From positions 186,001 through 250,000 of the forward strand of contig JAFEDK010000005.1 in the NCBI GenBank assembly GCA_018241665.1: a stretch of 64,000 bases of DNA, given 5' to 3'. Positions 3,032 to 61,491 of the stretch are shown one piece after another; position 1 is the first letter of the stretch; every line of letters begins with the position of its first letter. Source of the stretch: Pseudomonadota bacterium. GTDB lineage: Bacteria; Pseudomonadota; Gammaproteobacteria; Burkholderiales; Rhodocyclaceae. The notes under the pieces are model-generated. The model worked only from the letters and a program-made list of their open reading frames with translations. It made no database searches and was not told the DNA's origin. The position numbers and the translations under genes are program-made.

Positions 3032-3098
3032 GTAGGGACGAATTCATTCGCCCGCGGCGCCTCGTTCAAGCACGGAGGGCGAATGAATTCGCTCCCAC
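3032..3098. repeat. Dispersed palindromic element copy 1 (67 bp)
   Basis: The left arm GTAGGGACGAATTCATTCG and right arm GGGCGAATGAATTCGCTCCC are inverted repeats around a loop of about 23 nt. Two GAATTC sites are present. The outer caps have diverged slightly (GTAGGGAC and GCTCCCAC instead of GTGGGGGC and GCCCCCAC). It lies between convergent genes. Confidence 0.9.
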
Positions 3099-3141
3099 GG
3101 GAGACTTGGTGAACACCCTTGTCGGGACTGGAAGCCCGCCC

Positions 3142-3369
3142 CTACGGCTCCTCGTCGCGGGCGGCAAGTTCCGCCAGCACCAGCGGAAAGGCGGCGCTGC
3201 CGACCAGGGCCACGCCGGACACCAGCAATACCAGCCCGGCGCCGGACTCCTGCAGTAACGGATGCAGATCCGCGCCAAAGCCGGCCAGCAACAACGCACC
3301 GGCGAGCAGGCACAGCAGGCCGGGGATGCCCATCAGCCAGGCGCCGGCGGGCAGTCGCTTGAGGGCCAT
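3142..3369 (-). CDS. Small two-helix membrane protein
   Basis: A 75-residue hydrophobic protein. It has two predicted membrane helices, roughly residues 8-32 (leucine/alanine/glycine rich) and 38-62, and a short acidic C-terminal tail ending RDEEP. The ATG used lies 1 nt after the trmB stop, which suggests co-translation with trmB. I do not recognise a family. The charged tail and tight coupling argue for a real gene, but no functional motif is visible. Confidence 0.6.
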   Translation of the reverse strand: MALKRLPAGAWLMGIPGLLCLLAGALLLAGFGADLHPLLQESGAGLVLLVSGVALVGSAAFPLVLAELAARDEEP

Positions 3370-3370
3370 C

Positions 3371-4108
3371 TCAGACCCGCTTGAAGACCACGTCCCACAC
3401 ACCGTGGCCGAGCTTGATGCCGCGGTTCTCGAACTTGGTCAGCGGCCGGTAGTCCGGCTTCGGCGCGAAACCGTCGGCGGTGTTGGCGAGCAGCGGCTCG
3501 GCGGACAGCACCTCCAGCATCTGGTGGGCGTATTCCTCCCAGTCGGTGGCGCAGTGCAGGTAGCCGCCGGGCGCCAGCCGCGAGGCGATCAGCTTGACGA
3601 AGGGCCCCTGCACCAGGCGGCGCTTGTGGTGACGCTTCTTCGGCCAGGGGTCCGGGAAGTAGATATGCACACCGGCCAGCGATCCTTCCGGGATCATGTC
3701 GCGCAGCACTTCCACCGCGTCATGCTGGACAATGCGCAGGTTGGTGAGACCACCCTCGTCGATCAGCTTGCACAGCCCACCGACACCCGGCGCATGCACC
3801 TCGATGCCGACGAAGTCGTCGCCCGGACGCACCCGGGCGATCTCAGCGGTGGCCTGGCCCATGCCGAAGCCGATCTCGACGATATGCGGCGCCTTGCGCC
3901 CGAAGACCGCGTCGAGATCCACCGGCTCCGGCCGGTACGGCAGGCCGACCCTGGGCATCATCTCGTCGAGGAAGCGATGCTGGGCCTCCGACATGCGCCC
4001 CTGGCGGAGCACGAAGCTGCGGATGGACTGGGACGTGAGACGGCCGCCCGGCGTGGACGACTGTTCATCGGATTCATCGGACGGGGGCGTTTGCTGTTCT
4101 TCGCTCAT
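3371..4108 (-). CDS. trmB: tRNA (guanine-N7-)-methyltransferase
   Basis: TrmB methylates G46 in the variable loop of tRNAs using SAM. The 245-residue protein has a disordered acidic N-terminus (about 25 residues). The SAM-binding segment [10 protein letters not shown] is near residue 100, followed by a [10 protein letters not shown] motif and the [14 protein letters not shown] signature that is diagnostic for the family. The C-terminal TKFENRG and GHGVWD motifs are also intact. It is followed 1 nt later by the small membrane protein gene. A palindromic repeat separates it from thiG upstream. Confidence 0.96.
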
Positions 4109-4132
4109 GGCGGATTCCGGAATTCAGAACAT

Positions 4133-4197
4133 ATAGGGGCGAAGCCATTCGCCCACCGCGGCATCCATGCACCGCGGGCGAATGAATTCGCCCCCAC
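4133..4197. repeat. Dispersed palindromic element copy 2 (65 bp)
   Basis: The right arm GGGCGAATGAATTCGCCC with CCAC cap is intact. The left arm has TTC changed to GCC, which destroys its GAATTC site. The loop is 2 nt shorter than in the 67 bp copies. It sits between thiG and trmB, which run the same way. Confidence 0.85.
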
Positions 4198-4212
4198 GAA
4201 AATACAAGAAAC

Positions 4213-4998
4213 TCAGCTACCGATCAGGCCACTGGTCGGCGAGCTCGGGCTGGCAGTGTAGTACTTCTTGGGCATGCGGCCGGACAGGAAGGCCTCGCGG
4301 CCGGCCTCGACGCCCTTCTTCATGGCGCCGGCCATCTTCACCGGATCCCTGGCCAGCGCGATCGCGGTGTTCATCAGCACCCCGTCGCAGCCCAGTTCCA
4401 TCGCGATGGCCGCGTCGGATGCGGTCCCGACACCGGCATCCACCAGCACCGGCACCTTCACCGCGTCACGCACCAGCTGCACGTTCCACGGGTTGAGGAT
4501 GCCCATGCCGGAGCCGATCAGCGAGGCCAGTGGCATCACCGCGACACAGCCGATGTCTTCGAGCATCTTGGCCTGGATCGGATCGTCGGCGCAGTAGACC
4601 ATCACCTCGAAGCCCTCCTTCACCAGCACCTCGGCGGCCTTCAGGGTTTCGGGCATGTTGGGGAACAGGGTGTGCGGATCGCCGAGCACCTCCAGCTTGA
4701 CCAGCTTGTGGTCGTCCAGCAGCTCGCGGGCCAGGCGCAGCGTGCGCACCGCGTCCTCGGCGGTGTAACAGCCAGCCGTGTTGGGCAGGTAGGTGAATTC
4801 GGACGGCGGCAGCGCATCCAGCAGGCTCGGAGCCTTCGGATCCTGGCCGATGTTGGTGCGGCGGATCGCCACGGTGACGATCTGCGCGCCACTGGCCACG
4901 ATGGCCTCGCGGGTCTCGGTGAAGTCCTTGTACTTGCCGGTTCCCACCAGCAGCCGGGAGGAATAGCTCTTGCCAGCAATCGTCAGCAAATCATCCAT
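4213..4998 (-). CDS. thiG: Thiazole synthase
   Basis: ThiG condenses 1-deoxyxylulose 5-phosphate, dehydroglycine and the ThiS thiocarboxylate into the thiazole phosphate of thiamine. The 261-residue TIM-barrel protein starts [20 protein letters not shown]. It carries the Schiff-base lysine in LVKLEVLGD (K101) and the phosphate-binding segments [21 protein letters not shown] and GVLMNTAIA. The ATG was chosen at the homologous N-terminus; an upstream extension would run back toward thiS. It lies 79 nt downstream of thiS, which supplies its sulfur carrier. Confidence 0.96.
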
Positions 4999-5077
4999 GG
5001 GGAAAGCCAACCTGAAAAATGAGTTGAACGTAGGAAGCGGGGAAAGTGCGCGGACCGGGGATACGGTACGGAGCCGC

Positions 5078-5305
5078 TCAACCGCCGCCGACCGCGACGA
5101 CGATCTCGAGGCGGTCGCCATCGGCCAGCTGGGCCTCGGCGTGTCGGCCCTTGGGCACGATCTCGCCGTTGCGCTCCACCGCCAGACGCTTGCCGGTCAG
5201 GCCCATGTCGTCGAGCAGGGCCGCCACACTGAGGGGCGCCACAAAGCTGCGCGCTTCGCCGTTGACGGTCAGGACCAGGGGGGTAGAAGAGACTTGGGAA
5301 GACAT
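5078..5305 (-). CDS. thiS: Sulfur carrier protein ThiS
   Basis: A 75-residue ubiquitin-fold sulfur carrier that ends in the required GG (VAVGGG). As a C-terminal thiocarboxylate it hands sulfur to ThiG. The N-terminal beta strand [10 protein letters not shown], the [12 protein letters not shown] segment and the GDRLEIV strand match the family. There is an extension of about 8 residues at the N-terminus compared with E. coli ThiS. It is encoded just before thiG on the same strand. Confidence 0.93.
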
Positions 5306-5331
5306 GGACGCAGTTTACCACGCCTCGCCGG

Positions 5332-5360
5332 TTGCCCTCCGCCCTCGCCATAAGTACAAT
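5332..5360 (+). promoter_or_regulatory. Promoter of tRNA-Gly
   Basis: TTGCCC (5332-5337) and TACAAT (5355-5360) are separated by 17 nt. The predicted transcription start is a few bases before the mature tRNA. Confidence 0.65.
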
Positions 5361-5373
5361 CACGGTCCTTCGA

Positions 5374-5447
5374 GCGGGCGTCGTATAATGGTAATACCTC
5401 AGCTTCCCAAGCTGATGCCGTGGGTTCGATTCCCATCGCCCGCTCCA
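5374..5447 (+). tRNA. tRNA-Gly (anticodon CCC)
   Basis: A full cloverleaf: acceptor GCGGGCG/CGCCCGC, anticodon stem TCAGC/GCTGA with loop TTCCCAA (anticodon CCC), T-loop TTCGATTC, encoded CCA. It reads GGG codons. A terminator hairpin follows 33 nt later. Confidence 0.95.
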
Positions 5448-5862
5448 CATCGGATTCATGCAGGCCGTTGATCTGCAAGTAAAAAGGCCAGCCTGAAGAG
5501 GTTGGCCTTTTTGCTGTCTGGTCGATATCTGGTCGGAGGTGGGTAGGGCGTGGTCTAGATACATAAAGCTCTTTCCAGCAGGCAGCCCATCGGCCGGAGC
5601 TGCCATCCGAACCACGACAAACAGAAAGCCGGAACCGCCCCATCAGCGGCATCCGCGGTCTTGAAGTCGTCGCTCCGGAGCGGCCCGTCGACCTTGTCTG
5701 GGCTATTTGACAGATGGGCACCCAGGGCGCCGCTTCGCACTGGCCAGCTTCCCGGCGGACCAACCGGCTGAGACTGGCCGGCACCGAAGCACCGCCTGCG
5801 GCCACAAGCCCGGGCAATCCGCCAGGCCAGGTAACCCGGATCACAGACAAGGACCCACGTCG
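5448..5862. other. Non-coding stretch after tRNA-Gly
   Basis: About 415 bases between tRNA-Gly and the DUF5710 gene. The first part holds the tRNA terminator hairpin. The rest has open frames on both strands but none gives a recognisable protein, and I see no integrase fragment and no duplicated tRNA end. Position beside a tRNA is typical of integration hot spots, so this could be an eroded insertion, but nothing proves it. Confidence 0.4.
5481..5512 (+). terminator. Terminator after tRNA-Gly
   Basis: A 13 bp stem, AAAAAGGCCAGCC with GGTTGGCCTTTTT, around a 6 nt loop. The poly-A and poly-T ends make it a possible bidirectional intrinsic terminator. Confidence 0.85.
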
Positions 5863-6186
5863 ATGCGCACCAACCTCCAAGTACCGTTTGCCGAAAAGGA
5901 CGAGGCCAAGCGCCTGGGCGCCCGCTGGGACCCGGCACGACGGCTGTGGTATGTGCAGAACGCCGCGGACCTCTCGGCGTTCAGCCGATGGCTGCCGGGT
6001 ACGGCGTTGGATGGCGCGACGGCAGCGCAGAAACCCACCAGCACGCGCAAGCCGGCAACGTCCGCCGCGCTGGTGAAGGTCGGGGCACGCTACTTCGAGC
6101 TCGACTGCGAATGCCTGCCCTGGGAAGGTTGCGCAAAATGCCAGGCCATTGTCTTGGAGAAGGACTGGCGGACCGGCGCCGGCTGA
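5863..6186 (+). CDS. DUF5710 domain protein
   Basis: A 107-residue protein. Residues 4-30 carry the short DUF5710 motif: VPFAEKDEAKRLGARWD followed by a WYV segment. This module is usually found at the ends of plasmid primases, topoisomerases and other DNA-processing proteins, where it may bind nucleic acid. Here it stands almost alone, with a C-terminal half containing four cysteines (C-x-C-x5-C-x2-C pattern around residues 87-98) that could bind a metal. The ATG is the first of the domain; an earlier in-frame start would add unrelated sequence. Function is unknown. Association with a tRNA-adjacent accessory stretch is noted. Confidence 0.7.
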   Translation: MRTNLQVPFAEKDEAKRLGARWDPARRLWYVQNAADLSAFSRWLPGTALDGATAAQKPTSTRKPATSAALVKVGARYFELDCECLPWEGCAKCQAIVLEKDWRTGAG

Positions 6187-6244
6187 ATGGCCAGCAACGA
6201 GTGGACACGCCGGACTGTCCATTTTTGATACAAAACCGTGCCCT

Positions 6245-6262
6245 CATGGATTTGTATCCATG
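6245..6262. promoter_or_regulatory. Perfect inverted repeat upstream of bacteriohemerythrin gene
   Basis: CATGGAT and ATCCATG, 7 bp arms, around a TTGT loop, 54 nt before the start codon. It could be an operator or an mRNA hairpin. No poly-T tract follows, so it is not a classical terminator. Confidence 0.4.
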
Positions 6263-6315
6263 TATCCTCACCGGACACGCCAAAACAAAACAGAACAGAA
6301 GAGGGGACACACATA

Positions 6316-6765
6316 ATGGAGATCGTCAGACCCGGATTGAGCACCGGAAACAAGATCGTCGACGACCAGCACCAGGAGATACTGACCCTCGCGCGGGAGG
6401 CCATGAACCGTTTCGACGAGAGCCGTGGCGGTAACTCCAGCGAGTTCCACACGCTGCTGAACACCCTGGCCACGCTGGCGGCCAGGCACTTTCATACCGA
6501 AGAAACCCTGCTCCGCCAGAACGCCTGCCCGACGCTCAAGGAGCATCAGGAGGAACACGCCGCGTATAGCGAACGGATCCTCGACCTGCTGATGAAAGCC
6601 ATGGCAGGAAACCTCGACCGCAGCGGGCTGTTGAGCGTCATGGAGGACTGGACGACGCATCATCTGCTCGTCTGGGACGCAGGCTGCGTCCACTACCTGC
6701 AGGAGGGCCGCCACGTGGAGACGCGCGACGGCATCCCCCTGCCCTCCAGCCCGACGGAGCACTGA
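6316..6765 (+). CDS. Bacteriohemerythrin
   Basis: A single-domain, 149-residue hemerythrin that binds O2 at a non-heme di-iron centre. Expected ligands are visible in order: H in DDQHQE (about residue 25), H and E in ARHFHTEETLL, H pair in KEHQEEH, and the closing H-x4-D in THHLLVWDAG. Length is slightly above the usual 130-140, due to a C-terminal tail. The ATG is preceded by GAGGGG at a suitable distance. It stands alone and probably serves O2 storage, delivery or sensing in microaerobic life (inference from family). Confidence 0.92.
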   Translation: MEIVRPGLSTGNKIVDDQHQEILTLAREAMNRFDESRGGNSSEFHTLLNTLATLAARHFHTEETLLRQNACPTLKEHQEEHAAYSERILDLLMKAMAGNLDRSGLLSVMEDWTTHHLLVWDAGCVHYLQEGRHVETRDGIPLPSSPTEH

Positions 6766-6797
6766 TGCCAGCCGGGCCGCCCGGCCCGGCACGCGGC

Positions 6798-7391
6798 TCA
6801 CATCAGGGACGGCTCGATACGCTCGGTGTTCGGCTCGAGGCGGGCCGCCACTTGGGCTTTGGATGGGGCCGGCTTCTTGACAGCCGGTTTCGGCTCGGCC
6901 TCAGGCTTCATGCCCCGCCCCAGGCGCGCACCGAAAAAGCCGAACAAGCCACCGAACACACTGGCCACCAGCGAACCCATGATGGGCACCGGCGAGGCCG
7001 GCGGGGCTACCGACACAGGCGGCGTAGCGTGGGCCTTCTTCAGCTCGGTGTGAGCCTGGTTCAAGCCGCTGAGCTGACGTCCCAAGTCTTCGACACGATT
7101 TTCCAGCTGCCGGTTTGAATTCTCCAGCTCGGTCATCCGCCTGACGAACTCCGGCGGAATCGCAGGTGCGGGAGACGGCGCCGCAGCGGCCTTGCGGGCA
7201 ACGGGCGGCGCAACCTTCTCCTTGTGGGGAGCAGGCTTCACAGCCGTCTTCTTTGGTGCAGCCTTGCTTGTCTTGGTGACCGAAGCATTCTTGGCAGCGG
7301 GCGCCGGGTGATGCGTGCTTTCATGGGGAGCCGCCTGGGCGCCCAGGGAAACGGCCAGAGCCAGGCCCGGGAGGATGTGACGATAAAGCAT
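6798..7391 (-). CDS. Secreted or membrane-anchored coiled-coil protein, unknown function
   Basis: A 197-residue protein. It has a signal peptide (LALAVSLGAQAAP, cleavage near residue 20), then a low-complexity region rich in Ala, Lys and Pro (residues 20-75). A short coiled coil follows (about 80-110, TELENSNRQLENRVEDLGRQ). A glycine-rich hydrophobic helix (VASVFGGLFGFFGA, about residues 140-158) precedes a basic, proline-rich tail. Such a layout suggests an envelope protein whose helix may sit in a membrane. It lies 136 nt downstream of the adaptor protein gene on the same strand. I do not recognise a family. Confidence 0.6.
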   Translation of the reverse strand: MLYRHILPGLALAVSLGAQAAPHESTHHPAPAAKNASVTKTSKAAPKKTAVKPAPHKEKVAPPVARKAAAAPSPAPAIPPEFVRRMTELENSNRQLENRVEDLGRQLSGLNQAHTELKKAHATPPVSVAPPASPVPIMGSLVASVFGGLFGFFGARLGRGMKPEAEPKPAVKKPAPSKAQVAARLEPNTERIEPSLM

Positions 7392-7527
7392 GGACTTCGT
7401 GAGCAATCGTTAGGAGCGGCTTGTCGGAACAGCCAGGAACAGGCAGCCGGCCGCAGGTGTGGCGTCCATTCCCGCAGGAAACACGGGCGAACACCGGAAG
7501 ACTTGTTGCGAAGCCGGGATTTTATGC

Positions 7528-8712: not shown

Positions 8713-8722
8713 GATTGGGACC

Positions 8723-10213
8723 TCAATTCGGAGCAGGCGCGTCGGCCGCCACGGTGCGCGGGGCCGGGTCGGCCACGGACGCATAGTGAGCCCCGCCGCC
8801 GGTCGCCCGGTTCAGCGCGATCCACGCCTGCAAGCGTTCCTGCTGAACGCTCAGATAGGTTTGCTGGGCATTGAGCATGGAGCGCCGGGCATCCTCCAGC
8901 TCGAGCAGATTGCTGGCTCCCTCACGGAAGCGGACCTCGACGGATTCGAAGAAGCGCTGGTACTCGCTGCCGGATATGCGCGCATTTTCCGCCCTTTCGT
9001 GGGCCGCTGCATACCGGGTAAGGCCGTCTTCCATCTCCTGGATGGCCAGGCGGATCCGCGCCTTGTAGTCGGCCAGCGCCTCGTCGTAACGGGATTTGGC
9101 CAGCTCCACCGCCGCCTTGCGCCGCCCGCCGTCGAAGATCGGCAGGCTCACCGACGGCCCGAAGGACCACGACCCGAAAGACACGCTGCCGGAGCCACCG
9201 CCCTTGTTCGCCGTGAAGCCGAAATCCCCGTTGAGGGTAAGGCGCGGGTAACGATCCGCTTCGGCCAGGCCGATGTCCGCCGACGCGGCCGCCAGGCTGC
9301 GTTCGGCGGAGCGGACGTCCGGCCGCTGCATCAACGCATCGCGGGGAATCGAAATATCGAAATGCTTGGGCACGGGCAGGCGCTCCAGTCCGGTCGGCTT
9401 GTCCGCCATCGCCAGCATCAGCTCCGGCCGCGGAATGCCGGTCAGGCGCGTCAGCTGGTTCTCCAGGCGCTCGCACTGGGCCCGCGTCGCCGCCAGCTGG
9501 GTACGCGCCTCCGCCACCGACGCGGTGCTGCGGATGGCCTGATAGGGCGCTGTGAAACCTTCCTTCACGCTGGCCTCGGTCAACCGGGCGGTGGCCTCCC
9601 GCGAGGCCACGTCCTGCTCGCTGAGCGCCGCGTAGGACTGGCAGGCCCGGTAGCTCAGGTAAGCATCCGCAACATCGGCGGCAAGGCTCACCCGCGCGTC
9701 GGCCAGCGTCGCCGCCTGCGCCGCTTCGCGCGCCAGCGCCCCTTCCCGGCCACGGCGGACCGCGCCGAACAGGTCGATCTCCCAGGAAGAATTCATCGAC
9801 AGCCAGGACTGGGTGAAGCTCCTGCTGTTCGACGCGCCGGAGGCCTGCACGCCGCTGGAGCCATCCACCGTCGGGCCCGCCGCCGCATTGGCCTGCCCGG
9901 TCAGCGAGCGGGACTGGTTGAGCTTGGCCATCGCCGCTTCCAGCGTCGGGCTGCTCGCGAAGGCCTTTTCGACCATGTGGTCGAGCACCGGATCGGACAA
10001 CTCGGTCCACCAGGTAACCGGCGTCTCCTTGACCCCGGCGCCCTTGACGGACACGGGTGCCGGCACGTCCGAGCGGGACGTCCATTTGTTCGGCACATCT
10101 GCCGACGACAGCTCCGGAGACTTGTAATTGGGCCCCACCGCCGTACATCCGCCGAGCACGCACAGGCAGGCCAGCGAGGTCCAGCGAATGTCCTTCAGGA
10201 CTTGAAACGGCAT
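8723..10213 (-). CDS. Outer-membrane efflux lipoprotein (NodT/OprM type)
   Basis: A 496-residue TolC-family channel lipoprotein. The signal peptide ends in lipobox LGGC, giving a lipidated Cys, followed by TAVGPNYKSPEL typical of NodT-type factors. Two OEP repeats follow; the second carries the conserved LPIFDGGRR and DALMQRPDVRSAERSL segments. It forms the exit duct of tripartite efflux and is followed 10 nt later by the adaptor gene, so the two are co-transcribed. The start at 10213 gives a short, normal signal peptide. The usual order adaptor-pump-channel is reversed here and the pump is absent. Confidence 0.92.
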   Translation of the reverse strand: MPFQVLKDIRWTSLACLCVLGGCTAVGPNYKSPELSSADVPNKWTSRSDVPAPVSVKGAGVKETPVTWWTELSDPVLDHMVEKAFASSPTLEAAMAKLNQSRSLTGQANAAAGPTVDGSSGVQASGASNSRSFTQSWLSMNSSWEIDLFGAVRRGREGALAREAAQAATLADARVSLAADVADAYLSYRACQSYAALSEQDVASREATARLTEASVKEGFTAPYQAIRSTASVAEARTQLAATRAQCERLENQLTRLTGIPRPELMLAMADKPTGLERLPVPKHFDISIPRDALMQRPDVRSAERSLAAASADIGLAEADRYPRLTLNGDFGFTANKGGGSGSVSFGSWSFGPSVSLPIFDGGRRKAAVELAKSRYDEALADYKARIRLAIQEMEDGLTRYAAAHERAENARISGSEYQRFFESVEVRFREGASNLLELEDARRSMLNAQQTYLSVQQERLQAWIALNRATGGGAHYASVADPAPRTVAADAPAPN

Positions 10214-10566
10214 GTTCTTGAACTTCTTACCTTCGACTGCGCCGGGGACAGGGCCCGCTCGCCAATGCACGGGAAATGCCCCCGCGCCAGACCGGCGAGA
10301 GTGCTAGCCCCCCCTCCCTGCTTCAAGTGAACTTTTGAAACAGCATGTGTCGGACCGGCGGGCGGGACTTGGGTTCAAATCCACAGTGACTGACGACACA
10401 CGTGGGGGCGAATTCATTCGCCCACGGAGCTTGATCAAACCGCAGAGGGCGAATGAATTCGCCCCCACGGTTCCAATCCCAATCCCAATCCCAATCCCAA
10501 TCCCAATCCCAGTTCCAGTTCCAGTTCCAGTTCCAGTTCCAGTTCCAGTTCCAGTTCCAGTTCCAG
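10214..10566. other. Intergenic region with palindrome copy 3 and a hexamer array
   Basis: About 350 bases between the outer-membrane factor and the pseudouridine synthase. It has no gene. It holds a 67 bp dispersed palindrome and, directly after it, a hexanucleotide tandem array. The first 190 bases should contain the promoter of the efflux pair, but I see no strong -35/-10 pair. Confidence 0.6.
10402..10468. repeat. Dispersed palindromic element copy 3 (67 bp)
   Basis: Canonical copy. Left cap GTGGGGGC, core GCGAATTCATTCGCCC, loop of about 23 nt (CGGAG...GATCAA...CCG), core GGGCGAATGAATTCGCCC, cap CCAC. Two GAATTC sites. Confidence 0.95.
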
Positions 10567-10568
10567 TC
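10473..10568. repeat. Hexanucleotide tandem array
   Basis: Six copies of CCAATC (10473-10508) run directly into nine copies of CCAGTT (10509-10562) and one CCAGTC. The array starts 4 nt after palindrome copy 3 and ends at the 3' end of the rluA-type gene, whose stop codon lies at its edge. A microsatellite of this size should be length-variable. Confidence 0.95.
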
Positions 10569-21098: not shown

Positions 21099-22516
21099 CG
21101 GGGTCTCCGGGTCGGCAGGGCCAGCGGGAAGCGTAGCGCGAAACGGGCCCCCTCGCCGCTCGCCACGGTGAACCGGCCGCGCAGCTGGTCCGCCAGCAGC
21201 GGCACCAGCTGAAGGCCGAGGGAGGTCACGCCAGCCAGGTCGAAGCCCTCCGGCAGTCCGACGCCATCGTCGGTCACCGCCAGATCGAGCTCCCCGTCCA
21301 CCTCCTGCAGCTCGATCTGCACCGCACCGCCGCGACCGGCCGGGAAGGCGTGCTTGAAGGCATTGGTGACCAGCTCATTGACGATCAGGCCGCAGGGCAC
21401 GGCGCGCTCCAGGTCGAGGAACTGCGGCTCGCCCGGCAGCACGCAGCGCAGCGCGATGCGCGCGCTGTCCTCCCGGTAGCTGCTGAGCAGCAACTGGGTG
21501 AGGCGATCGAGGTATTCGCCGAGGTCGATGCGCGAGAAGTCCTTGCGCTCGTACAGCTGCTGGTGGGTCAGGGCCATCGCCCGCACGCGGCTCTGGCTCT
21601 CCGCCAGGATGTTGCGCAGGCGCGGATCGCTGGCGTGGGTCGCCTGCAGGTTGAGCAGGCTCGAGATGACCTGCAGGTTGTTCTTGACCCGGTGGTGCAC
21701 CTCGTTGAGCAATACGGTCTTTTCCTGCAGCGCATTCTCCAGCGTCTGCTGCACGCGCCGCCGCTCGGTGATGTCCACGATGGAGGCCAGCACCATGGTC
21801 CCTTCGTCGGTGTCGATCGGGTTGAGGCCGATTTCCACCGGAAACTCACTGCCGTCGGCACGCCGCGCGAACAGGTCGCGGCCGACGCCCATCGGCCGCG
21901 CCAGCGGCGCGTGGAAGAAACCGTTGCGGAACTGCTGATGCTCGCCGCGCAGGCGCTCGGGCACCAGCATCTCGACGGCCTCGCCGATCAGCGCCTCGCG
22001 GGGATAGCCGAACAACTGCTCGGTCTGGGCATTGACCAGCACCATGCGGCCACTGCGATCCACCATCACCATCGCGCTCGGGGCAAACTCGACGACGCGC
22101 CGGAAACGCTCCTCCTGGCGCTTGCGCTCGGTGATGTCCACCACCGCCGCCAGCACCATGAAGCTGCCGCCGGCCTCGATCGGCGTCAGGCCGATCTCCA
22201 CCGGGAACTCGCTGCCGTCCCGCCGCCGCGCGAACAGGTCGCGCCCGCTGCCCATCGGCCGCGGATGCGGATCGGCAAAGAAGCCGGCCCGGTAGGCCGG
22301 ATGATGGCCGGCCAGTCGTGACGGCACCAGGCGGTCCACGGACTCCCCCAGCAACTCGTCGCGGCCGTAGCCGAACAGGCGCTCCGCCTGGGCATTGACC
22401 AGCACGATGCGGCCTTCGCCATTCACCATGACCATGGCGGTCGGTGCCCACTCGACGACCCGGCGGAATGACGCATCGCCGGCCGGAAAGGGCTCGCTAC
22501 GGGATTGCTCGTTCAT
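21095..22516 (-). CDS. PAS-PAS-HisKA_2 sensor histidine kinase
   Basis: A 473-residue kinase without membrane segments. It begins with two highly similar PAS domains (about 15-130 and 137-252), both containing PTAMVMV or PSAMVMV, the NAQ-x-E-x-LFGY motif and SEFPVEIGL, so an internal duplication is clear. The dimerisation domain is HisKA_2 with EVHHRVKNNLQVISSLLNLQ (H274/H275), then a HATPase with NELVTNAFKHAFP. It probably senses a cytoplasmic cue such as redox or a small ligand and phosphorylates the receiver of the overlapping REC-GGDEF-EAL gene. The ATG at 22516 begins just before the first PAS; an upstream start would add an unrelated leader. Confidence 0.93.
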   Translation of the reverse strand: MNEQSRSEPFPAGDASFRRVVEWAPTAMVMVNGEGRIVLVNAQAERLFGYGRDELLGESVDRLVPSRLAGHHPAYRAGFFADPHPRPMGSGRDLFARRRDGSEFPVEIGLTPIEAGGSFMVLAAVVDITERKRQEERFRRVVEFAPSAMVMVDRSGRMVLVNAQTEQLFGYPREALIGEAVEMLVPERLRGEHQQFRNGFFHAPLARPMGVGRDLFARRADGSEFPVEIGLNPIDTDEGTMVLASIVDITERRRVQQTLENALQEKTVLLNEVHHRVKNNLQVISSLLNLQATHASDPRLRNILAESQSRVRAMALTHQQLYERKDFSRIDLGEYLDRLTQLLLSSYREDSARIALRCVLPGEPQFLDLERAVPCGLIVNELVTNAFKHAFPAGRGGAVQIELQEVDGELDLAVTDDGVGLPEGFDLAGVTSLGLQLVPLLADQLRGRFTVASGEGARFALRFPLALPTRRPR

Positions 22517-22977: not shown

Positions 22978-23030
22978 GTGGGGGCGAATTCATTCGCCCT
23001 GGGACTGCGGGCGAATGAATTCGCCCCCAC
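22978..23030. repeat. Dispersed palindromic element copy 4 (53 bp, short loop)
   Basis: Both arms and both GTGGGGGC/GCCCCCAC caps are perfect, with two GAATTC sites. The loop is about 9 nt instead of 23. It lies between convergent genes. A fragment GTGAATTCGCCCC at 23053-23065, 22 nt further on, may be the remnant of another copy. Confidence 0.92.
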
Positions 23031-30860: not shown

Positions 30861-30902
30861 CCTGTGGTGCTGATCCTGTGGTGCTGATCCTGTGGGGATG
30901 AT
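30861..30902. repeat. Three 14-bp tandem units abutting palindrome copy 5
   Basis: CCTGTGGTGCTGAT occurs twice and CCTGTGGGGATGAT once, followed without a gap by CCTGTGGGGGCG, which is the start of the palindromic element. Each unit begins with the same bases as the element edge. Confidence 0.9.
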
Positions 30903-30905
30903 CCT

Positions 30906-30972
30906 GTGGGGGCGAATTCATTCGCCCACGGAGGTGGATTGACGTGCCGAGGGCGAATGAATTCGCCCCCAC
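30906..30972. repeat. Dispersed palindromic element copy 5 (67 bp)
   Basis: Canonical copy with perfect caps and cores and two GAATTC sites. The loop is CGGAG...GCCGAG-like. It is the only copy located between divergent genes. Confidence 0.95.
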
Positions 30973-33468: not shown

Positions 33469-34386
33469 TCAACAGGCTTTCAGAAGGTGGCCGTCGCACC
33501 TGGCGACGCCCGCCCGCTGAAGTTCCCGCAGCAACCATTCGGCCAGCTCCCCGAAGCTTAGACCGAGAAAGCGCGTATTGGCTTCCCGATAGAGGGGTAC
33601 GGCGGCCAGATAGTCCGGCAGGCCGTCGATCTCCAGGCTCCGCCGCTCCAGCAGCGTGAACGTGAAGCATGCCCGGATCGCGTTGCGGGCCATCCGCGCG
33701 CCATCCTCTTCGAAAGCGCGCAGGCGTGCGAAGGCTGCATTCAGCGCCTCCTCCACCTCGACGAAGGGCGCGCCGTGGCCGGGGATCACCCGCTCCACCG
33801 GCAGGCGGGCGATGACCTCCAGCGTGGCCCGCGCGCCGGCCAGCCCGCCACCTTCGCCAATCACCTCGGCAAACAGGATGCCGAAGCCGTCCCGCCACAG
33901 GGCGTCGCCGGAGATCAGCAGGCGTGCATCGGGCGCATGGAAGACCAGCGCGTCCATGTCGTGGCCCGGCGCTGCCAGGGCCTGCCATTCGAGGCCGCCC
34001 ATCTGCAGGCGCTCGCCAGGCGCGATGACGTGATCGTGCCGGAAGGCCTCGCCCTGCTGCGCGGCGGTGCTGAGCAGCAGGGCCGCCTCGTCCCACGCAT
34101 GGACGGCCTCTGCAATCCCCGCCGGCACGCCGATCGTGCAGCCGAAAACGCGCTGCACCGCCGCGTTGCCGCCGATGTGGTCGGAATGGGAATGGGTGTT
34201 GAGGAGACGGCCCAGACGCCGTCCGTCCAGGGCCTCACGCAGCAGCGCGACGGTCTGGTCGGCATGGGTCACGTAGCCGCTATCCACCAGCGTCGCCGTG
34301 TCGCCGTCGAACAGCAACACGTTGTTGGCGGACAACCAGCCCCGCTCCAGCACCCGGATGCCGGGTGGCAGCACACAGGCAGACAT
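33469..34386 (-). CDS. MBL-fold metallo-hydrolase
   Basis: A 305-residue glyoxalase II-like metallo-beta-lactamase fold protein. The metal motif THSHSDHIGGN (HxHxDH) is near residue 63, with further ligands in APGHDMDALVFH, SGDAL and PGHGAPF. These indicate a dinuclear metal hydrolase. No signal peptide. The gene follows two DUF1289 genes on the same strand with a 9 nt gap. The substrate is unknown; thioester or lactone hydrolysis is common in the family. A 24-residue alpha-helical C-terminal part is rich in Leu and Glu. Confidence 0.88.
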   Translation of the reverse strand: MSACVLPPGIRVLERGWLSANNVLLFDGDTATLVDSGYVTHADQTVALLREALDGRRLGRLLNTHSHSDHIGGNAAVQRVFGCTIGVPAGIAEAVHAWDEAALLLSTAAQQGEAFRHDHVIAPGERLQMGGLEWQALAAPGHDMDALVFHAPDARLLISGDALWRDGFGILFAEVIGEGGGLAGARATLEVIARLPVERVIPGHGAPFVEVEEALNAAFARLRAFEEDGARMARNAIRACFTFTLLERRSLEIDGLPDYLAAVPLYREANTRFLGLSFGELAEWLLRELQRAGVARCDGHLLKAC

Positions 34387-34850: not shown

Positions 34851-34936
34851 GGGCTGGGCCTGTGGGCTGGGCCTGTGGGCTGGGCCTGTGGGCTGGGCCT
34901 GTGGGCTGGGCCTGTGGGCTGGGCCTGTGGGCTGGG
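34851..34936. repeat. 13-bp tandem array abutting palindrome copy 6
   Basis: Six perfect units of CCTGTGGGCTGGG (34859-34936) plus a leading partial unit, running without a gap into CCTGTGGGGGCG of the palindrome. The units begin with the same bases as the element's outer edge. Confidence 0.95.
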
Positions 34937-34939
34937 CCT

Positions 34940-35006
34940 GTGGGGGCGAATTCATTCGCCCGCGGAGCCTGTTCGACCCACAGAGGGCGAATGAATTCGC
35001 CCCCAC
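34940..35006. repeat. Dispersed palindromic element copy 6 (67 bp)
   Basis: Canonical copy with perfect arms and caps and two GAATTC sites. The loop reads GCGGAGCCTGTTCGACCC. It is immediately preceded by the 13-mer array. Confidence 0.95.
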
Positions 35007-35643: not shown

Positions 35644-36246
35644 TCAGTACGGTCCTTTGGCCAGCCAGCGCTCCAGCTGGGGCAGCCGGTCGTTGCCCCA
35701 GAAGCCCTCCCCTTCGACGATGAAGAAGGGCGAGCCGAACACGCCACGCGCTTCGGCCAGGTCGATCTCGGCCTTCAGGCGGGCCTTGGTGCCGGCATCC
35801 GAGAAGGCCGCCGCGATGTCGTCCCGGTCGAGGCCCAGCGCTTCGGCGATTTCCAGAAGCACGGCGGTCTCGGCGATGTTGCGGCCATCCACGAAATAGG
35901 CGCGGTAAACCGCGTGGGCGAAGGCCCGCGCCTCGTCCGGGTTACGGTCGCTGAGCCACTGGAAGGCACGGGCCGCGTGCTCGGTGTGCAGCGGATAGGG
36001 GCTGGGTTCCTTGAAGGGGATCCCGAAGAAGGCCGCCGAACGCTCCACATCACGCCGCACGTACTCGGAACGCATCAGCGCGGACGGGATGCGCATACCG
36101 CCCTGGGGCTGATAATGGGCGTCGAGCACGATGGCATGCCACATCACGTTGCGGCCGTGCCTTTCGGCAATCGCGTCGATCTGCTCGGAGGCCAGGTAAC
36201 CGTAGGGCGAGGAAAAGTCGAAGTAGAAATCGATCGGGGCGGACAT
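35644..36246 (-). CDS. DsbA-family 2-hydroxychromene-2-carboxylate isomerase-like protein, copy B
   Basis: A 200-residue thioredoxin-fold protein of the HCCA isomerase/GST-kappa group. It begins [20 protein letters not shown], with the active serine pair replacing the Cys-x-x-Cys of DsbA. It ends with [21 protein letters not shown], the cis-Pro and substrate-site signature. In naphthalene degradation the family acts on a glutathione adduct; in other bacteria the role is unknown. It is a close relative of the upstream copy A and about 100 nt downstream of it. Confidence 0.88.
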
Positions 36247-36347: not shown

Positions 36348-36968
36348 TCAGAAGCCGCCTTCGGCCAGCCACTTCTCGACCTGCGACAGACGGTCGGCCC
36401 CCCAGAAGGCCTCGCCGTCCACGAATATGAAGGGCGAGCCGAACACGCCGCGGGCCAGCGCCAGCTCGCTCTCGGCGATCAGGCGGGTCTTGATCTCGGC
36501 GCTGCCGAGGACGGCGGACAGTTCGTCCCGATCCAGGCGCAGGCCGGCCGCCACGTCGAGCACCACGGCCAGGTCGGAGATATTCTGGTCGTCGACGAAA
36601 TAGGCACGGTAGATCGCCAACCCGAACTGGCGGGCCAGCGCCGGGTCCCGGTCGTTGATCCACAGGAAGGCGCGGGCCGCGTGCTGGGTGGGCAAGGGGA
36701 AGCTGCTCGGCTGACGGTAGGGCAGGCCGAAATAGCGCGCCGAGCGCTGGATGTCGTGCAGGGAATAGGCACCCTTCAGCGGAATGCTGGGCAACGGTCC
36801 GAGGCCAGTGACCTTGAAGGTGGCGCCAAGCAGGAAGGGATGCCACAACACGCTGCGCCCATAGCGGGCGGCCAGCTCGTCGATCTTCTCGGCGGCGAAG
36901 TAGCCGTACGGGGACGAGAAGTCGAAATAGAAATCCAGCGGCGCGGCGGAACGGTGGGGCGTGTTCAT
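36348..36968 (-). CDS. DsbA-family 2-hydroxychromene-2-carboxylate isomerase-like protein, copy A
   Basis: A 206-residue paralogue of copy B with the same landmarks: [20 protein letters not shown] near the start, QHAARAFLWINDRDP in the helical insertion and [22 protein letters not shown] near the end. The two share the insert pattern but differ in the loops, so this is an older duplication, not a recent copy. It follows the thioesterase gene by 17 nt. It probably forms an operon with the thioesterase, copy B and the LOG gene. A glutathione-dependent detoxification role is plausible but not shown. Confidence 0.88.
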   Translation of the reverse strand: MNTPHRSAAPLDFYFDFSSPYGYFAAEKIDELAARYGRSVLWHPFLLGATFKVTGLGPLPSIPLKGAYSLHDIQRSARYFGLPYRQPSSFPLPTQHAARAFLWINDRDPALARQFGLAIYRAYFVDDQNISDLAVVLDVAAGLRLDRDELSAVLGSAEIKTRLIAESELALARGVFGSPFIFVDGEAFWGADRLSQVEKWLAEGGF

Positions 36969-37538: not shown

Positions 37539-37605
37539 GTGGGGGCGAATGAATTCGCCCTGCACGCATCGATCGACCCCCGCGGGCGAATGAATTCGCC
37601 CCTAC
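37539..37605. repeat. Dispersed palindromic element copy 7 (67 bp, same-way cores)
   Basis: Caps GTGGGGGC and CCCCTAC are inverted, but both inner cores read GCGAATGAATTCGC. In all other full copies the left core is GCGAATTCATTCGC. Each core still contains GAATTC. This copy looks as if its left core was inverted or converted from the right. Confidence 0.9.
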
Positions 37606-49337: not shown

Positions 49338-49340
49338 GCG

Positions 49341-53170: not shown

Positions 53171-53188
53171 GAACGACGGGTCCGGCGA

Positions 53189-54922: not shown

Positions 54923-55076
54923 GGCAAACACTGCGACTAAAAGCACAGGATTATATCCAAGCAGGCGTTACCACGGCGGGACGCCGGTGCGGCGGCGGTA
55001 ACAAAGTACGACCGGCATGGCAAAAATCATGTCCTTGCCCTATCTTTGCAGCCTGTGTGCGCAGCCGGAAACGACC

Positions 55077-55736: not shown

Positions 55737-55808
55737 CGACCCACCTCGCCGGCTTTCGTCGCCCGGCCTTTCCGGGCACAATCCGCGTTTTCCTTTTCTA
55801 CAGCCGCC

Positions 55809-57347: not shown

Positions 57348-57362
57348 GACTGAGACACCGGA

Positions 57363-57376
57363 CCTGTGGCACTGAA
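57363..57376. repeat. Single 14-bp unit before palindrome copy 8
   Basis: CCTGTGGCACTGAA is followed by CCTGTGGGGGCG of the element. It is a one-unit counterpart of the arrays next to copies 5 and 6. Confidence 0.7.
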
Positions 57377-57379
57377 CCT

Positions 57380-57446
57380 GTGGGGGCGAATTCATTCGCC
57401 CGCGGACTCGGATCAACCGGCAGCGGGCGAATGAATTCGCCCCCAC
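57380..57446. repeat. Dispersed palindromic element copy 8 (67 bp)
   Basis: Canonical copy with perfect caps, cores and two GAATTC sites. The loop is GCGGACTCGGATCAACCGGC. It lies between two genes in the same direction, ubiB and the arginase-aminotransferase gene. Confidence 0.95.
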
Positions 57447-57546
57447 GGGTGTGGTAAGCCTCACACCCGGCCTTGAACGAAGCCACCGCGGCCCGCTCAA
57501 ACAGGCATGACGGCCATCTCGGCCCAACCGCCTTCGGAGGAAGACC

Positions 57547-59676
57547 ATGCCCGCCCCGCTCGTGCCCGTCCGTCCGGTCCGCATCGTCGGTGTCGGATCC
57601 TGCCTCGGCGCACCGATCTTCGGCCCCGCCGCCGGCCCCCGCACCCTCAAGGATCTCGGCCTCGATGCCCAGTTGCGCAGCCGCGGCATCCCGGCCCGCT
57701 GGCATTCCCTGCACGAGCCGAGCGCACCCAAACCACCGCGCGCATCCCTGCCGGAACGGCTGGGCAACGTCAGCGCACTGCTCCACGATCTGGCTGACGA
57801 AGTCGCCGCCCTGTGCGCCGACGGCACGGTGCCGCTGGTACTCGGCGGCGACCACGCGATCGGCACCGGCACCTGGCGCGGCGCGGCGCGGGCCGTGGAG
57901 GGACGCGGCAAGCTGGGATTGATCTGGATCGACGCCCACCTGGACTCGCACACCGTGCAGACCAGCCACAGCGGCAACATCCACGGCATGCCACTGGCCG
58001 CGCTGCTCGGCGTTGGCGACCCGAGCCTCACCGACGTACCCGGCCCCCGCCTCGATCCGGCCCACGTGACCATCGTTGGCGCACGCTCCTGGGAGCCGGA
58101 GGAGCTGGCCCTGCTCAAGCGCCTCGGCGTACGCATCTTCTTCATGCCCGAGGTCAAGCGCCGCGGCCTGCCGGCCGTGCTGTGCGAAGCCATGAGCATC
58201 GCCCGCGACGGCACCGCGGGATTCGGCGTATCGGTGGACCTCGACTCCGTGGATTGCGCGCTGCTGCCGGCCACCACCTGCCTGGAACCGGACGGTCTCG
58301 ATCCGCAGGAACTCGCCGACTGCCTGCACGGCCTGCGCAGCTGCGCCGACCTGGTGGCGCTGGAAATCGTCGAGTATGTGCCCGAACGGGACCGGGACGG
58401 CAGCGGCGCCCGCTGGGTACTGGACTTTGCGTCGGCGGCCCTCGGCCCCACCACCACCAACCTGCTGGCCCGCGAGCAGACCTTCGGCGCCCACAACTAC
58501 GCGCCGCTGCCGGTGGTGTTCACCCGCGGTGAAGGCGTCTGGCTATGGGACGTGGAAGGCCGGCGCTACCTGGACATGATGAGCGCCTACTCGGCGGTCA
58601 GCTTCGGCCACAGCCATCCACGCCTGGTCAAGGTCCTCGCCGACCAGGCCCAGCGCCTGGCACTGACCTCCCGCGCTTACGCCAACGACCGCCTGCCGCT
58701 GATGCTGGAGCGCCTCTCGGCCCTGCTCGGCTACGACCAGGCGCTGCCGGTGAACACCGGCCTGGAGGCCGTCGAGACGGCCCTCAAGGCGGCCCGCAAG
58801 TGGGGCCACAAGATCAAGGGCGTACCGGAGGGGCAGGCAGAGATCATTGTCTGTGCCGACAACTTCCACGGCCGCTCGACGACCATCGTCGGCTTCTCGT
58901 CGGAAGCCCAGTACCGGGACGGCTTCGGCCCCTTCGCGCCGGGCTTCCGCAGCATCCCCTTCGGCGACGCCGAGGCCCTCGCCGCCGCCATCACGCCGCA
59001 CACCGCGGCCTTCCTGTTTGAACCTATCCAGGGCGAAGGCGGCATCCACGTGCCGCCGGACGGCTGGCTGGCCCGCTGCGCCGAGATCTGCCGCGCCAAC
59101 AACGTGCTGCTGATCGCCGACGAGGTGCAGACCGGCCTTGGCCGCACCGGCCGCCTGCTGGCCTGCCAGCACGACGGCGTGCGCCCGGACGGCGTGATCC
59201 TCGGCAAGGCCCTCGGCGGCGGCCTGCTGCCGGTCTCGGCCTTCCTGGCCGACGAAGCGGTGATGCGGGTCTTCCGCCCCGGCGACCACGGCTCCACCTT
59301 CGGCGGCAACCCGCTTGGCGCCGCCGTCGCCGCCGAAGCCCTGGCCCTGCTCAGCGAGGAGAAGCTGGTGGAGCGCGCCGACCGCCTCGGCGCCGCCTTC
59401 ATGGCCCGCCTTCAGGCCATCCGCAATCCGCTGATCCGCGAAGTACGCGGCCGCGGCCTGTTGATCGGCATGGAGCTGGACACCCGCCGCGTCAATGCCC
59501 GCACTGCGGCAGAATGGCTGCTGGCCCGCGGCCTGATGACCAAGGACACCCACGACTCCGTACTGCGCTTCGCACCGCCGCTGGTCGTGACCGAAGCCGA
59601 ACTGGACTGGGCAGTGAACGTCATCGAAGATGCGCTGGCCGACCTCGAACAACGTCTTTCCGGAAACAAGCCATGA
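57547..59676 (+). CDS. Arginase-ornithine aminotransferase fusion
   Basis: A 709-residue bifunctional protein. Residues 1-300 are an arginase: GGDHAIG (H103), WIDAHLDSH (D129, H131, D133), SGNIHGMP and SVDLDSVD (D231, D233), supplying the Mn2+ ligands; the usual Pro after SxDxDxxD is Cys here. Residues 308-709 are an ornithine aminotransferase: GAHNYAPLPVVFTRGEGVW, NTGLEAVETALKAARKWG, and PLP-binding Lys K554 in ILGKALGGG. No stop or frameshift at the joint. Together they turn arginine into ornithine and urea, then glutamate semialdehyde. The ATG overlaps nothing upstream; a GGAGGAAG precedes it. Its stop overlaps the YajD gene by 4 nt. Confidence 0.93.
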   Translation: MPAPLVPVRPVRIVGVGSCLGAPIFGPAAGPRTLKDLGLDAQLRSRGIPARWHSLHEPSAPKPPRASLPERLGNVSALLHDLADEVAALCADGTVPLVLGGDHAIGTGTWRGAARAVEGRGKLGLIWIDAHLDSHTVQTSHSGNIHGMPLAALLGVGDPSLTDVPGPRLDPAHVTIVGARSWEPEELALLKRLGVRIFFMPEVKRRGLPAVLCEAMSIARDGTAGFGVSVDLDSVDCALLPATTCLEPDGLDPQELADCLHGLRSCADLVALEIVEYVPERDRDGSGARWVLDFASAALGPTTTNLLAREQTFGAHNYAPLPVVFTRGEGVWLWDVEGRRYLDMMSAYSAVSFGHSHPRLVKVLADQAQRLALTSRAYANDRLPLMLERLSALLGYDQALPVNTGLEAVETALKAARKWGHKIKGVPEGQAEIIVCADNFHGRSTTIVGFSSEAQYRDGFGPFAPGFRSIPFGDAEALAAAITPHTAAFLFEPIQGEGGIHVPPDGWLARCAEICRANNVLLIADEVQTGLGRTGRLLACQHDGVRPDGVILGKALGGGLLPVSAFLADEAVMRVFRPGDHGSTFGGNPLGAAVAAEALALLSEEKLVERADRLGAAFMARLQAIRNPLIREVRGRGLLIGMELDTRRVNARTAAEWLLARGLMTKDTHDSVLRFAPPLVVTEAELDWAVNVIEDALADLEQRLSGNKP

Positions 59677-60023
59677 GCGACAAACTCGACCGCCTCGTCC
59701 TCGAAGCCCGCCGCGCCGCCGACAAGCGCGCGGAGGGCTACCGCGAGAAAGCCCTGAAGATCTACCCGTGGGTCTGCGGCCGCTGCGCCCGCGAATTCAC
59801 CGTCACCAACCTGCGCGAGCTGACGGTGCACCACCGCGACCACAACCACGACAACAACCCGCCCGACGGCAGCAACTGGGAGCTGCTGTGCCTGTACTGC
59901 CACGACAACGAACACCAGCGCCAACTCGAAGCCACCCAGGGCAACGTGACTGCCAAACAACCCGGCAAGGCCGCCACCCATTCCCCGTTCGCAGGGCTGG
60001 GGGCGCTGCTGAAGAAGGATTGA
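59673..60023 (+). CDS. YajD-type HNH nuclease family protein
   Basis: A 116-residue HNH protein. Zinc Cys pair CGRC and CLYC with the HNH segment LTVHHRDHNHDNNPPDGSNWELLCLYCHDNEH. This matches YajD, a small family of unknown role. The C-terminal tail ends GLGALLKKD, typical of the family. It overlaps the arginase-aminotransferase stop by 4 nt, suggesting co-translation, but no link in function is known. Confidence 0.9.
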   Translation: MSDKLDRLVLEARRAADKRAEGYREKALKIYPWVCGRCAREFTVTNLRELTVHHRDHNHDNNPPDGSNWELLCLYCHDNEHQRQLEATQGNVTAKQPGKAATHSPFAGLGALLKKD

Positions 60024-60162
60024 GCCCGGGCGGAGTACGCGCCGCAGCAACGGAATTCCGCCAACACCCTGTCCCAGCCGGCACACTGGCCTGCCATCGC
60101 CGTCTTCACCCCGCCCGACAAGGGGCGTAGCATTCGGCCCCTTGCCTTCCCCCCGCATCGCC

Positions 60163-61425
60163 ATGAGCATCAGCCCCGCCCGCGCCTGCGGCATCGACTT
60201 CGGCACCTCCAACTCCACCGTCGGCTGGCTGCGCCCTGGTCTGCCGACGCTGCTGCCTCTCGAGGACGGGAAGGCGACGCTGCCATCCGCCGTGTTCTTC
60301 AACGCGGACGAGGAGACCACCCATTACGGGCGGGATGCGCTGGCGGAATATCTGGAAGGCTACGAAGGGCGATTGATGCGGGCCATCAAGAGCCTGCTGG
60401 GCAGCAACCTGATGGACGGCAGCACCGAGGTCGGTGGCCGCGCGCTGCGCTTCCGCGACCTGCTGGCGAGCTTCATCGGCGAGCTGAAGAGCCGCGCCGA
60501 GACCGAGGCCGGGCGCAGCTTCGAGCAGGCGGTGTTCGGTCGCCCGGTGTATTTCGTGGACGACAACCCGGCCGCCGACCAGCGCGCCCAGGACACCCTG
60601 GAGGCGATCGCCCGCCAGGTTGGCTTCAAGGACGTCAGCTTCCAGTTCGAGCCGATCGGCGCGGCGCTGCACTACGAGGCCGGCCTCGACCGGGAGGAGT
60701 TGGTACTGATCGCCGACATCGGCGGCGGTACCGCCGACTTTTCGCTGGTGCGCCTGTCGCCGGAACGGGCCAAGAGCGTCGACCGCCGCGAGGACCTGCT
60801 CGGCAACGCCGGCCTGCACGTGGGCGGCACCGACTTCGACCGGGCGCTGAGCCTGGAATGCGTGATGCCGCTGCTCGGCTACAAGGGGCTGATGAAGAGC
60901 GGCGCCGAAGTGCCATCGGCGCTGTTCTTCCAGCTGGCTACCTGGCACACCATCAACTTCGCCTACACCCGGCAGGCCTTTGCCGATTTCCAGGCCATTT
61001 ACCGGGACGCGGCGGCCCGCCAGGAACTGGATCGCCTGGCCCGCCTGATCGGTCAACGCGAAGGGCACTGGCTGGCCCTGCAGGTCGAACAGGCCAAGAT
61101 CGACCTGTCCTCCGCCAGCACGGCCCACATGGAGCTGGACCGCCTGGAGCCGGGGCTCACCCACGAGATCAGCCGCGAGGCCTTCACGCTGGCCACCCGC
61201 AGCCTGGTCGAGCGCGTTGCGGCCACCGTCGACACGCTGCTCGACCAGGCCGGCGTGGCCCGCGACCAGGTGGACACGCTGTACTTCACCGGCGGCGCCA
61301 GCGGCGTGCCCCAGCTGCGCGAGCGCATCGCTGCCGAACTGCCCAAAGCCCGCGCGGTGGAAGGCGACCTGTTCGGCAGCATCGGCGCCGGCCTGGCGGT
61401 GGAAGCATCGCGCCGTTACGGCTGA
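60163..61425 (+). CDS. Short Hsp70-like ATPase (YegD type)
   Basis: A 420-residue Hsp70/actin-fold ATPase without the C-terminal peptide-binding domain. Phosphate 1 motif GIDFGTSNSTVG, connecting LIADIGGGTADFSL (phosphate 2), and adenosine motif YFTGGASGVPQLRERI are present. Close to E. coli YegD. It probably acts as a nucleotide-dependent chaperone or scaffold, role unproven. The ATG at 60163 is chosen as the first in the domain. It is followed by solo palindrome copy 9 and converges with the carboxylase genes. Confidence 0.88.
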   Translation: MSISPARACGIDFGTSNSTVGWLRPGLPTLLPLEDGKATLPSAVFFNADEETTHYGRDALAEYLEGYEGRLMRAIKSLLGSNLMDGSTEVGGRALRFRDLLASFIGELKSRAETEAGRSFEQAVFGRPVYFVDDNPAADQRAQDTLEAIARQVGFKDVSFQFEPIGAALHYEAGLDREELVLIADIGGGTADFSLVRLSPERAKSVDRREDLLGNAGLHVGGTDFDRALSLECVMPLLGYKGLMKSGAEVPSALFFQLATWHTINFAYTRQAFADFQAIYRDAAARQELDRLARLIGQREGHWLALQVEQAKIDLSSASTAHMELDRLEPGLTHEISREAFTLATRSLVERVAATVDTLLDQAGVARDQVDTLYFTGGASGVPQLRERIAAELPKARAVEGDLFGSIGAGLAVEASRRYG

Positions 61426-61465
61426 CAGCCGGTTTCCTCCTTCGGGGAACTTGCCGGACACACCC

Positions 61466-61491
61466 GTGGGGGCAAATGAATTCGCCCCCAC
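61466..61491. repeat. Dispersed palindromic element copy 9 (26 bp solo hairpin)
   Basis: GTGGGGGCAAATGAATTC joined to GCCCCCAC: both caps with a single core and one GAATTC. It looks like a deletion product of a full element in which the loop and left core were lost. Confidence 0.85.

Follow-up and report, generated by a model that had tools for sequence, protein, structure and literature searches.

REP-associated tyrosine transposases (RAYTs) and the tagged repetitive extragenic palindromes (REPs) that accompany them have been described in several settings. In Pseudomonas fluorescens SBW25 the REPs form REPINs (REP doublets forming hairpins), which are inverted doublets with a spacer; they are extragenic, are better kept than singlets, also occur in tandem clusters, and share the genome with RAYTs (PMC3116915). 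Nunvar et al. (2010) described REPs with a GT(A/G)G head and a palindrome with a short unpaired centre, TTCA centres being included in their Table 1, together with RAYT genes lying between inverted REPs. According to that study RAYT and REP coevolve, and RAYTs by its criteria were found in gammaproteobacteria only (PMC2817692). Di Nocera et al. (2013) described a GTAG-tagged super-family of REPs, which includes a Thauera family, has GTAG or GTGG tags, forms dimers and lies near gene 3' ends (PMC3733652). Published TnpAREP enzymes cut at CT; a GTGG tag shifted the cut of one enzyme to CC, and similar attempts to redirect cleavage by altering the tag failed in the other two of three systems (PMC8266576). 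The subject of this study is a family of nine palindromic elements in a 64,000-nt stretch of a Rhodocyclaceae genome (assembly GCA_018241665.1, contig JAFEDK010000005.1, positions 186,001 to 250,000), here called the window. The elements had been predicted to be REPs or bacterial interspersed mosaic elements (BIMEs) moved by a RAYT-type transposase.

The elements of the window resemble the SBW25 REPINs in each of the respects listed above and differ from them in REP sequence. They share with the systems of Nunvar et al. the head, the form of the palindrome and a RAYT between inverted REPs, and differ in that GTRGGGGCGAATTCATTCGCCC is not in Table 1 of that paper. Tag, dimers and position near gene 3' ends are shared with the GTAG-tagged super-family; neither GGGCGAA nor GAATTC was matched in the main text of PMC3733652, a text that does not cover the sequences in the figures. 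The core sequence had no relevant match in the literature searched (one match was unrelated); further papers, supplements and figure sequences may still contain it. Apart from replication of the pair as one unit, a feature the elements may have, each diagnostic feature of REP, REPIN and RAYT that was tested is present, and the family is therefore assigned to the known REP/REPIN/RAYT kind, within which it is, judged by its sequence, a new family. The nine copies very probably belong to a population of REPINs, non-autonomous miniature elements, and the single RAYT of the genome, itself flanked by REPINs, most likely copies or moves the 67-bp unit.

REPIN anatomy and the genome-wide population

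All nine predicted copies were present in the window. Searched with at most three mismatches, a 17-nt core gave 34 matches against 0.26 expected from shuffles. The near-palindromic core matches on both strands, so the 34 matches correspond to 17 halves. On one strand, a half begins with the tag GTGG or GTAG and continues with the 18-nt palindrome GGGCGAATTCATTCGCCC, whose centre is TTCA; the full unit holds two halves in opposite orientation, separated by a 23-nt spacer (22 + 23 + 22 = 67). This is REPIN architecture, that is, tag, 18-nt palindrome, 23-nt spacer and inverted copy. Six copies are exactly 67 bp long, as predicted (3032, 10402, 30906, 34940, 37539 and 57380). The predicted caps and reverse-complementary cores were found to the letter in four of these six (10402, 30906, 34940 and 57380), while 3032 and 37539 depart from that description. 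Intergenic placement held for all nine, 0/9 copies overlapping a gene according to a simple codon-usage gene predictor.

The population was then counted outside the window. Genome-wide, half-sites with at most one mismatch numbered 762 (390 + 372), and a reversed control pattern gave 0. Perfect-arm head-to-head pairs whose palindromes stand 22-24 nt apart numbered 217; since the pair pattern reads identically on the opposite strand, 217 per strand means 217 elements. A sample of 934,258 bp, or 17% of the 5,425,507-bp genome with the window included, contained 198 halves (at most three mismatches) in 88 clusters. The predicted density is correct for the window, at nine copies per 64 kb, and this sample has about one cluster per 10.6 kb. 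None of the 88 clusters lay inside a gene according to the simple predictor, whereas 83.5% of random positions did. Simple head-to-head pairs made up 57/88 clusters, and 64/77 head-to-head pairs were exactly 67 bp long. Among 175 REPs the tag was GTGG in 124 and GTAG in 31. The repeat has the defining features of a GTRG-tagged REP, namely a tag with a short palindrome, extragenic location and more than 100 copies, and inverted REP pairs at fixed spacing, which define a REPIN, are its main unit. GAATTC was found 349 times in the sample, where about 85 occurrences are expected from base composition; 168 REPs carry one.

The spacers were also related to one another. Once oriented, the 63 distinct 23-nt spacers of the 67-bp copies in the sample yield a single consensus, TCCGCCGGTTGATCAACCTCCGC, at a mean identity of 66% and an information content of 17.8 bits, compared to 3.2 (sd 0.16) for letter-shuffled spacers. 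The loop similarity that had been noticed in the window is therefore real, and a shared oriented consensus argues that the copied unit was probably the REP pair rather than the single REP. The idea that the spacer extends the hairpin continuously was rejected, as oriented halves pair less than shuffles (212 vs 237, sd 8). The gap was larger before orienting (212 vs 297, sd 13), which is put down partly to the asymmetric consensus having been read in both orientations; the comparison is confounded by relatedness, and no claim is made from it.

The RAYT gene and RAYT loci of other genomes

The genome contains one match to PF01797 at E <= 0.001, at C3:133924-134235 (C3 being a contig). It lies in a gene at C3:133855-134301 whose product, P0001, scored 150 bits against NCBIfam NF047646 (REP-associated tyrosine transposase; cut-off 80) and carries the motifs MPDHLH and ARYIVANP. 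P0001 resembles E. coli TnpAREP (PDB 4er8) in that the HUH and Tyr regions align, in a match of only 28.6 bits (E = 1e-5). Perfect-arm REPINs of the window family stand on both sides of the gene, at C3:133752/133793 and C3:134420/134461. The surrounding region is REP-dense and includes a six-unit array with a period of about 115 bp (C3:129478-130110). The family profile match, the HUH motif with Tyr and the flanking inverted cognate REPs identify P0001 as a predicted RAYT. A RAYT gene flanked by the same repeats, which the original prediction had proposed to look for, is thus present.

The bases next to the tag are strongly biased. Among 162 REPs, position -2 is C in 80% and position -1 is C or T in 92%. 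This enrichment of CY 5' of the tag agrees with the cleavage of single-stranded REP DNA beside the tag predicted for a RAYT, and it fits the cleavage of group 2 and 3 REPtrons at CT, or at CC for the one enzyme whose tag was changed to GTGG (PMC8266576). In the proposed mechanism the genome's one RAYT, which is a single-strand transposase of the Y1 HUH type, would recognize the tag and hairpin in single-stranded DNA and cleave at the CY dinucleotide beside the tag. The 67-bp pair would be copied or moved into intergenic sites, where it would be tolerated mainly downstream of genes.

Other genomes were examined for the core and for RAYT genes. The core half-site was present in 16/22 congeners and 0/37 genomes outside the genus; its copy number was 762 here, 221 in the relative G016, 28 in G008 and lower in the others. 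No RAYT match at E <= 0.001 was obtained in the relatives G016, G020 and G021. These three hold the gene that neighbors the RAYT here, and no RAYT lies within 1.5 kb beside it; loss of an ancestral RAYT from them is possible. The RAYT of G019 adjoins the same gene as that of this genome. Vertical orthology of the two, with a one-base-pair change in the stem, was considered and is unsupported by the tree, in which the RAYT of this genome groups with that of locus L033 (0.945) and the node that connects this pair to the RAYTs of G019 and G013 is supported at 0.245. The tree rests on the 11/16 loci that gave a protein, defined by an open segment of at least 110 aa, a PDHxH motif and a BLAST match; L034, L035, L037, L049 and L051 gave none. 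In G008 a RAYT fragment (G008:C159) starts where this genome has REPIN C4:132699, with one flank only on the G008 contig, so the RAYT gene may not always occupy the same place.

Repeats headed by GTGG or GTAG were found at 13/15 RAYT loci of other genomes, mostly with other stems. Tag-headed REP-type palindromes were found at 8/15 loci. The stem is GACTTCAGTC at two loci of G013 and in G019, and GGCTTCAGCC in G033; GACTTCAGTC recurs in other stem contexts at the RAYT loci of G018, G003 and L033. G008 has mixed palindromes beside the RAYT fragment at its contig end, one arm being GAATTCATTC as in this genome and the other GAACTTGTTC. At five more loci (L034, L035, L037, L038 and L045) inverted GTGG- or GTAG-headed repeats span the RAYT gene, and at L036 and L046 (2/15) no tag-headed repeats were found. 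A RAYT scan of contigs returned six loci of other organisms, a set from which records near the genome of the window may be left out. Two loci, L047 and L032 (~9845-9857, minus strand), have their RAYT stop codon within CTGTAGGGG, which joins the cleavage dinucleotide to the tag; in G008 this sequence runs directly into a full REP.

Orthologous sites and alternative explanations

Long syntenic blocks connect the window to G021 and, starting at about 5.9 kb, to G020 and G016 as well. Alignment breaks fell at repeats in 8/9 cases in G021, 7/8 in G020 and 5/5 in G016; the breaks away from repeats were at 5523-5863 (G021) and 33746-34284 (G020). A REP with at most three mismatches was missing at 9/9 orthologous window sites in G021, 7/7 in G020 and 3/7 in G016. 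The site at 57380 is the one clean empty site in the window. There the G016 sequence continues across the site, and the difference consists of the 67-bp unit plus four bases. Like the shared spacer consensus, this site fits replication of the REP pair as one unit. Elsewhere, a full REPIN at C51:311528 is present with nearly the same spacer in this genome and G016 and is decayed in G020 and G021, and the REPIN at C51:310556 corresponds to a single REP in G016. Other sites in the 224-kb neighborhood showed untidy differences between genomes. At 13/33 clusters of this neighborhood at least two relatives gave no usable flank. The comparison of orthologous intergenic sites returned both presence and absence of elements, and this result and the REP-flanked RAYT support the original prediction of REP/BIME elements moved by a RAYT-type transposase.

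The copies could instead be fixed structural or regulatory sites under selection, such as bidirectional terminators, mRNA 3' stabilizers, or gyrase or IHF sites, with no mobility. The REP hairpins are predicted to be strong using RNA parameters, and REPs favor gene 3' ends. Among intergenic regions of at least 30 bp, delimited with a crude gene caller, REPs occupied 24/55 convergent, 47/333 tandem and 7/94 divergent regions (p = 3.5e-7 for convergent vs divergent). The convergent bias is also expected, however, if insertions near promoters are purged. The REPs retained at 4/7 comparable window sites in G016 would suit fixed sites, but the REPs missing at 9/9 sites in G021, 7/7 in G020 and 3/7 in G016 would not. 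The core is confined to one genus among 60 genomes and is physically linked to a RAYT, neither of which favors fixed sites, and site turnover argues against them as the main explanation; a secondary role of this kind may exist. As the main explanation we consider it very improbable. Another candidate is miniature inverted-repeat transposable elements mobilized by a DDE transposase, which would have terminal inverted repeats and make target duplications, as the elements are short, palindromic, dispersed and without coding capacity. Yet the unit has a tag and two hairpins where simple terminal repeats would be expected, and the genome has a Y1 transposase flanked by REPs. Judged by these features, a DDE origin is scarcely credible.

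Several points besides the REPs retained in G016 weigh against copying or movement of the REPINs by the RAYT. No transposition events were observed. The difference at 57380 is 67 bp plus 4 bp, which makes the exact insertion boundary ambiguous, and the empty site in G016 could be due to excision. Most orthologous sites are not clean, the flanks outside the element differing as well. G016 has 221 half-sites without a RAYT match, indicating that copies can outlive or lack a RAYT. Finally, the link between tag and dinucleotide in the guide model is absent, CC/CT counts being 42/56 for GTGG and 11/9 for GTAG (Fisher p = 0.34). The test of this model, which pairs the third base of the tag with the second base of the dinucleotide, was also null for REPINs (p = 0.50), for singles (p = 0.69) and once similar flanks had been removed (p = 0.44).

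Individual copies and tandem arrays at REP heads

The nine copies are described here in order, without assigned strand. Copy 1 (3032..3098, 67 bp) is intergenic and has GTAG/GTGG tags, altered caps (GTAGGGAC / GCTCCCAC) and slight mutations in both arms. Copy 2 (4133..4197, 65 bp), also intergenic, has the tag ATAG and a mutated or decayed left arm. Copy 3 (10402..10468) is 67 bp long with perfect arms and is followed by a hexanucleotide tandem array. The arrays, CCCAAT then CCAGTT (window ~10470-10566), directly adjoin the REPIN, and no arrays were found at that site in G016, G020 and G021. Copy 4 (22978..23030) is 53 bp long with a short spacer. In the orthologous intergenic region of the same three relatives, other GTAG/GTGG-headed inverted sequences were seen by eye, perhaps decayed REPs of a different family. 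Copies 5 (30906..30972) and 6 (34940..35006) are both 67 bp with perfect arms. Copy 5 is flanked on both sides by tandem arrays, and a 14-nt array of CCTGTGGTGCTGAT and variants (30861..30909, plus strand) adjoins its left REP head. A 13-nt array with about seven units of GGGCTGGGCCTGT (34851..34944, plus strand) adjoins the left REP head of copy 6. Copy 7 (37539..37605, 67 bp) carries the core GCGAATGAATTCGC twice, once per half, the sense of the left core being reversed, and has a GTAG tag at the right end. Copy 8 (57380..57446, 67 bp, perfect arms) is the one facing the clean empty site in G016. The ninth element (61466..61491) is a single 26-bp palindrome with a tag at each end and not a pair; a similar 26-bp form lies at the same place in G016, and it is probably a collapsed REPIN. 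Apart from the repeats, off-diagonal matches between the window and the relatives (21762-22105 / 22125-22468 and 35654-36242 / 36358-36946; 67-75% identity) suggest internally duplicated genes or gene pairs.

Arrays such as those beside copies 5 and 6 recur at REP heads. Using tandem units with at least 80% identity and an allowed period of 8-45, 21/133 free REP ends adjoined a unit, compared to 10/4000 control intergenic positions. The period was 13-16 nt in 15/21 abutting arrays. The unit began with the REP tag in 15/21 arrays, in which the copied head was 4-8 nt long. CYGTRG was found 8-40 nt upstream on the same strand at 32/133 REP ends, on the opposite strand at 4/133, and at 104/4000 controls. 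In the same flanks arrays were still detected 45 nt further out in 10/133, which is expected for long arrays and is also a caution. Tandem Repeats Finder identified 106 arrays, 25 of which touch a REP (one is an array of REPs itself), and CYGTRGG occurred in 16/25 REP-touching arrays vs 3/81 elsewhere. The same program found 0/53 arrays of that kind in G016, G020 and G021. Array density per Mb was 78 in G016, 105 in G020, 112 in G021 and 114 here, or 87 here without the REP-touching arrays. Further arrays adjoining REP heads were seen in this genome at C3:134352-134422 and C5:83923-84015; in these and in the arrays beside copies 5 and 6, most units start with a copy of the head and end in CY.

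An origin of the arrays from the RAYT only was rejected. In a whole-genome pattern search G016, which has no RAYT match, has 8 such sites per 61 exact ends, and the arrays are therefore not strictly tied to a RAYT. This genome has more, 136 sites per 407 exact ends (p = 0.001); these ratios are upper bounds, as the numerator pattern is looser and units of one array are counted separately, and the p value shares the flaw. In fetched stretches, screened with a palindrome filter that differs from that of the own-genome scan, free ends adjoining arrays were 0/14 in G016, 0/10 in G020, 0/11 in G021 and 0/32 in 12 RAYT loci.

Most array units would open with the first nucleotides of a REP head and close with flank and CY. 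Such arrays may arise most simply by slippage at the hairpin base, where stalled replication would slip back. By a second route the RAYT would cut and rejoin at successive CY/GTGG sites. The more specific idea that REP heads seed their own minisatellites, in the form of mostly 13-16-nt arrays that grow outward from the CY/GTRG junction by replication slip-back or through the RAYT, is put forward tentatively and seems rather unlikely. The text on REPIN and REP tandems in PMC3116915 and PMC3733652 describes tandem repeats of whole REPINs, or of REPs with flanks; arrays at REP heads appeared neither in that text nor among the papers listed by one literature search.

The genome of the window holds a large RAYT-linked REPIN population, and its congeners differ widely in copy number (762, 221, 28 or fewer) and in RAYT presence. 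Relatives are syntenic enough for sites to be scored as filled, decayed or empty, which makes the genus useful for comparing how REPINs are gained, how they decay and how a RAYT is lost. A specific lead on an effect of the hairpin or the enzyme on the flanks comes from the tandem arrays that adjoin REP heads; if they are the work of the RAYT, they would reveal a new enzymatic activity.

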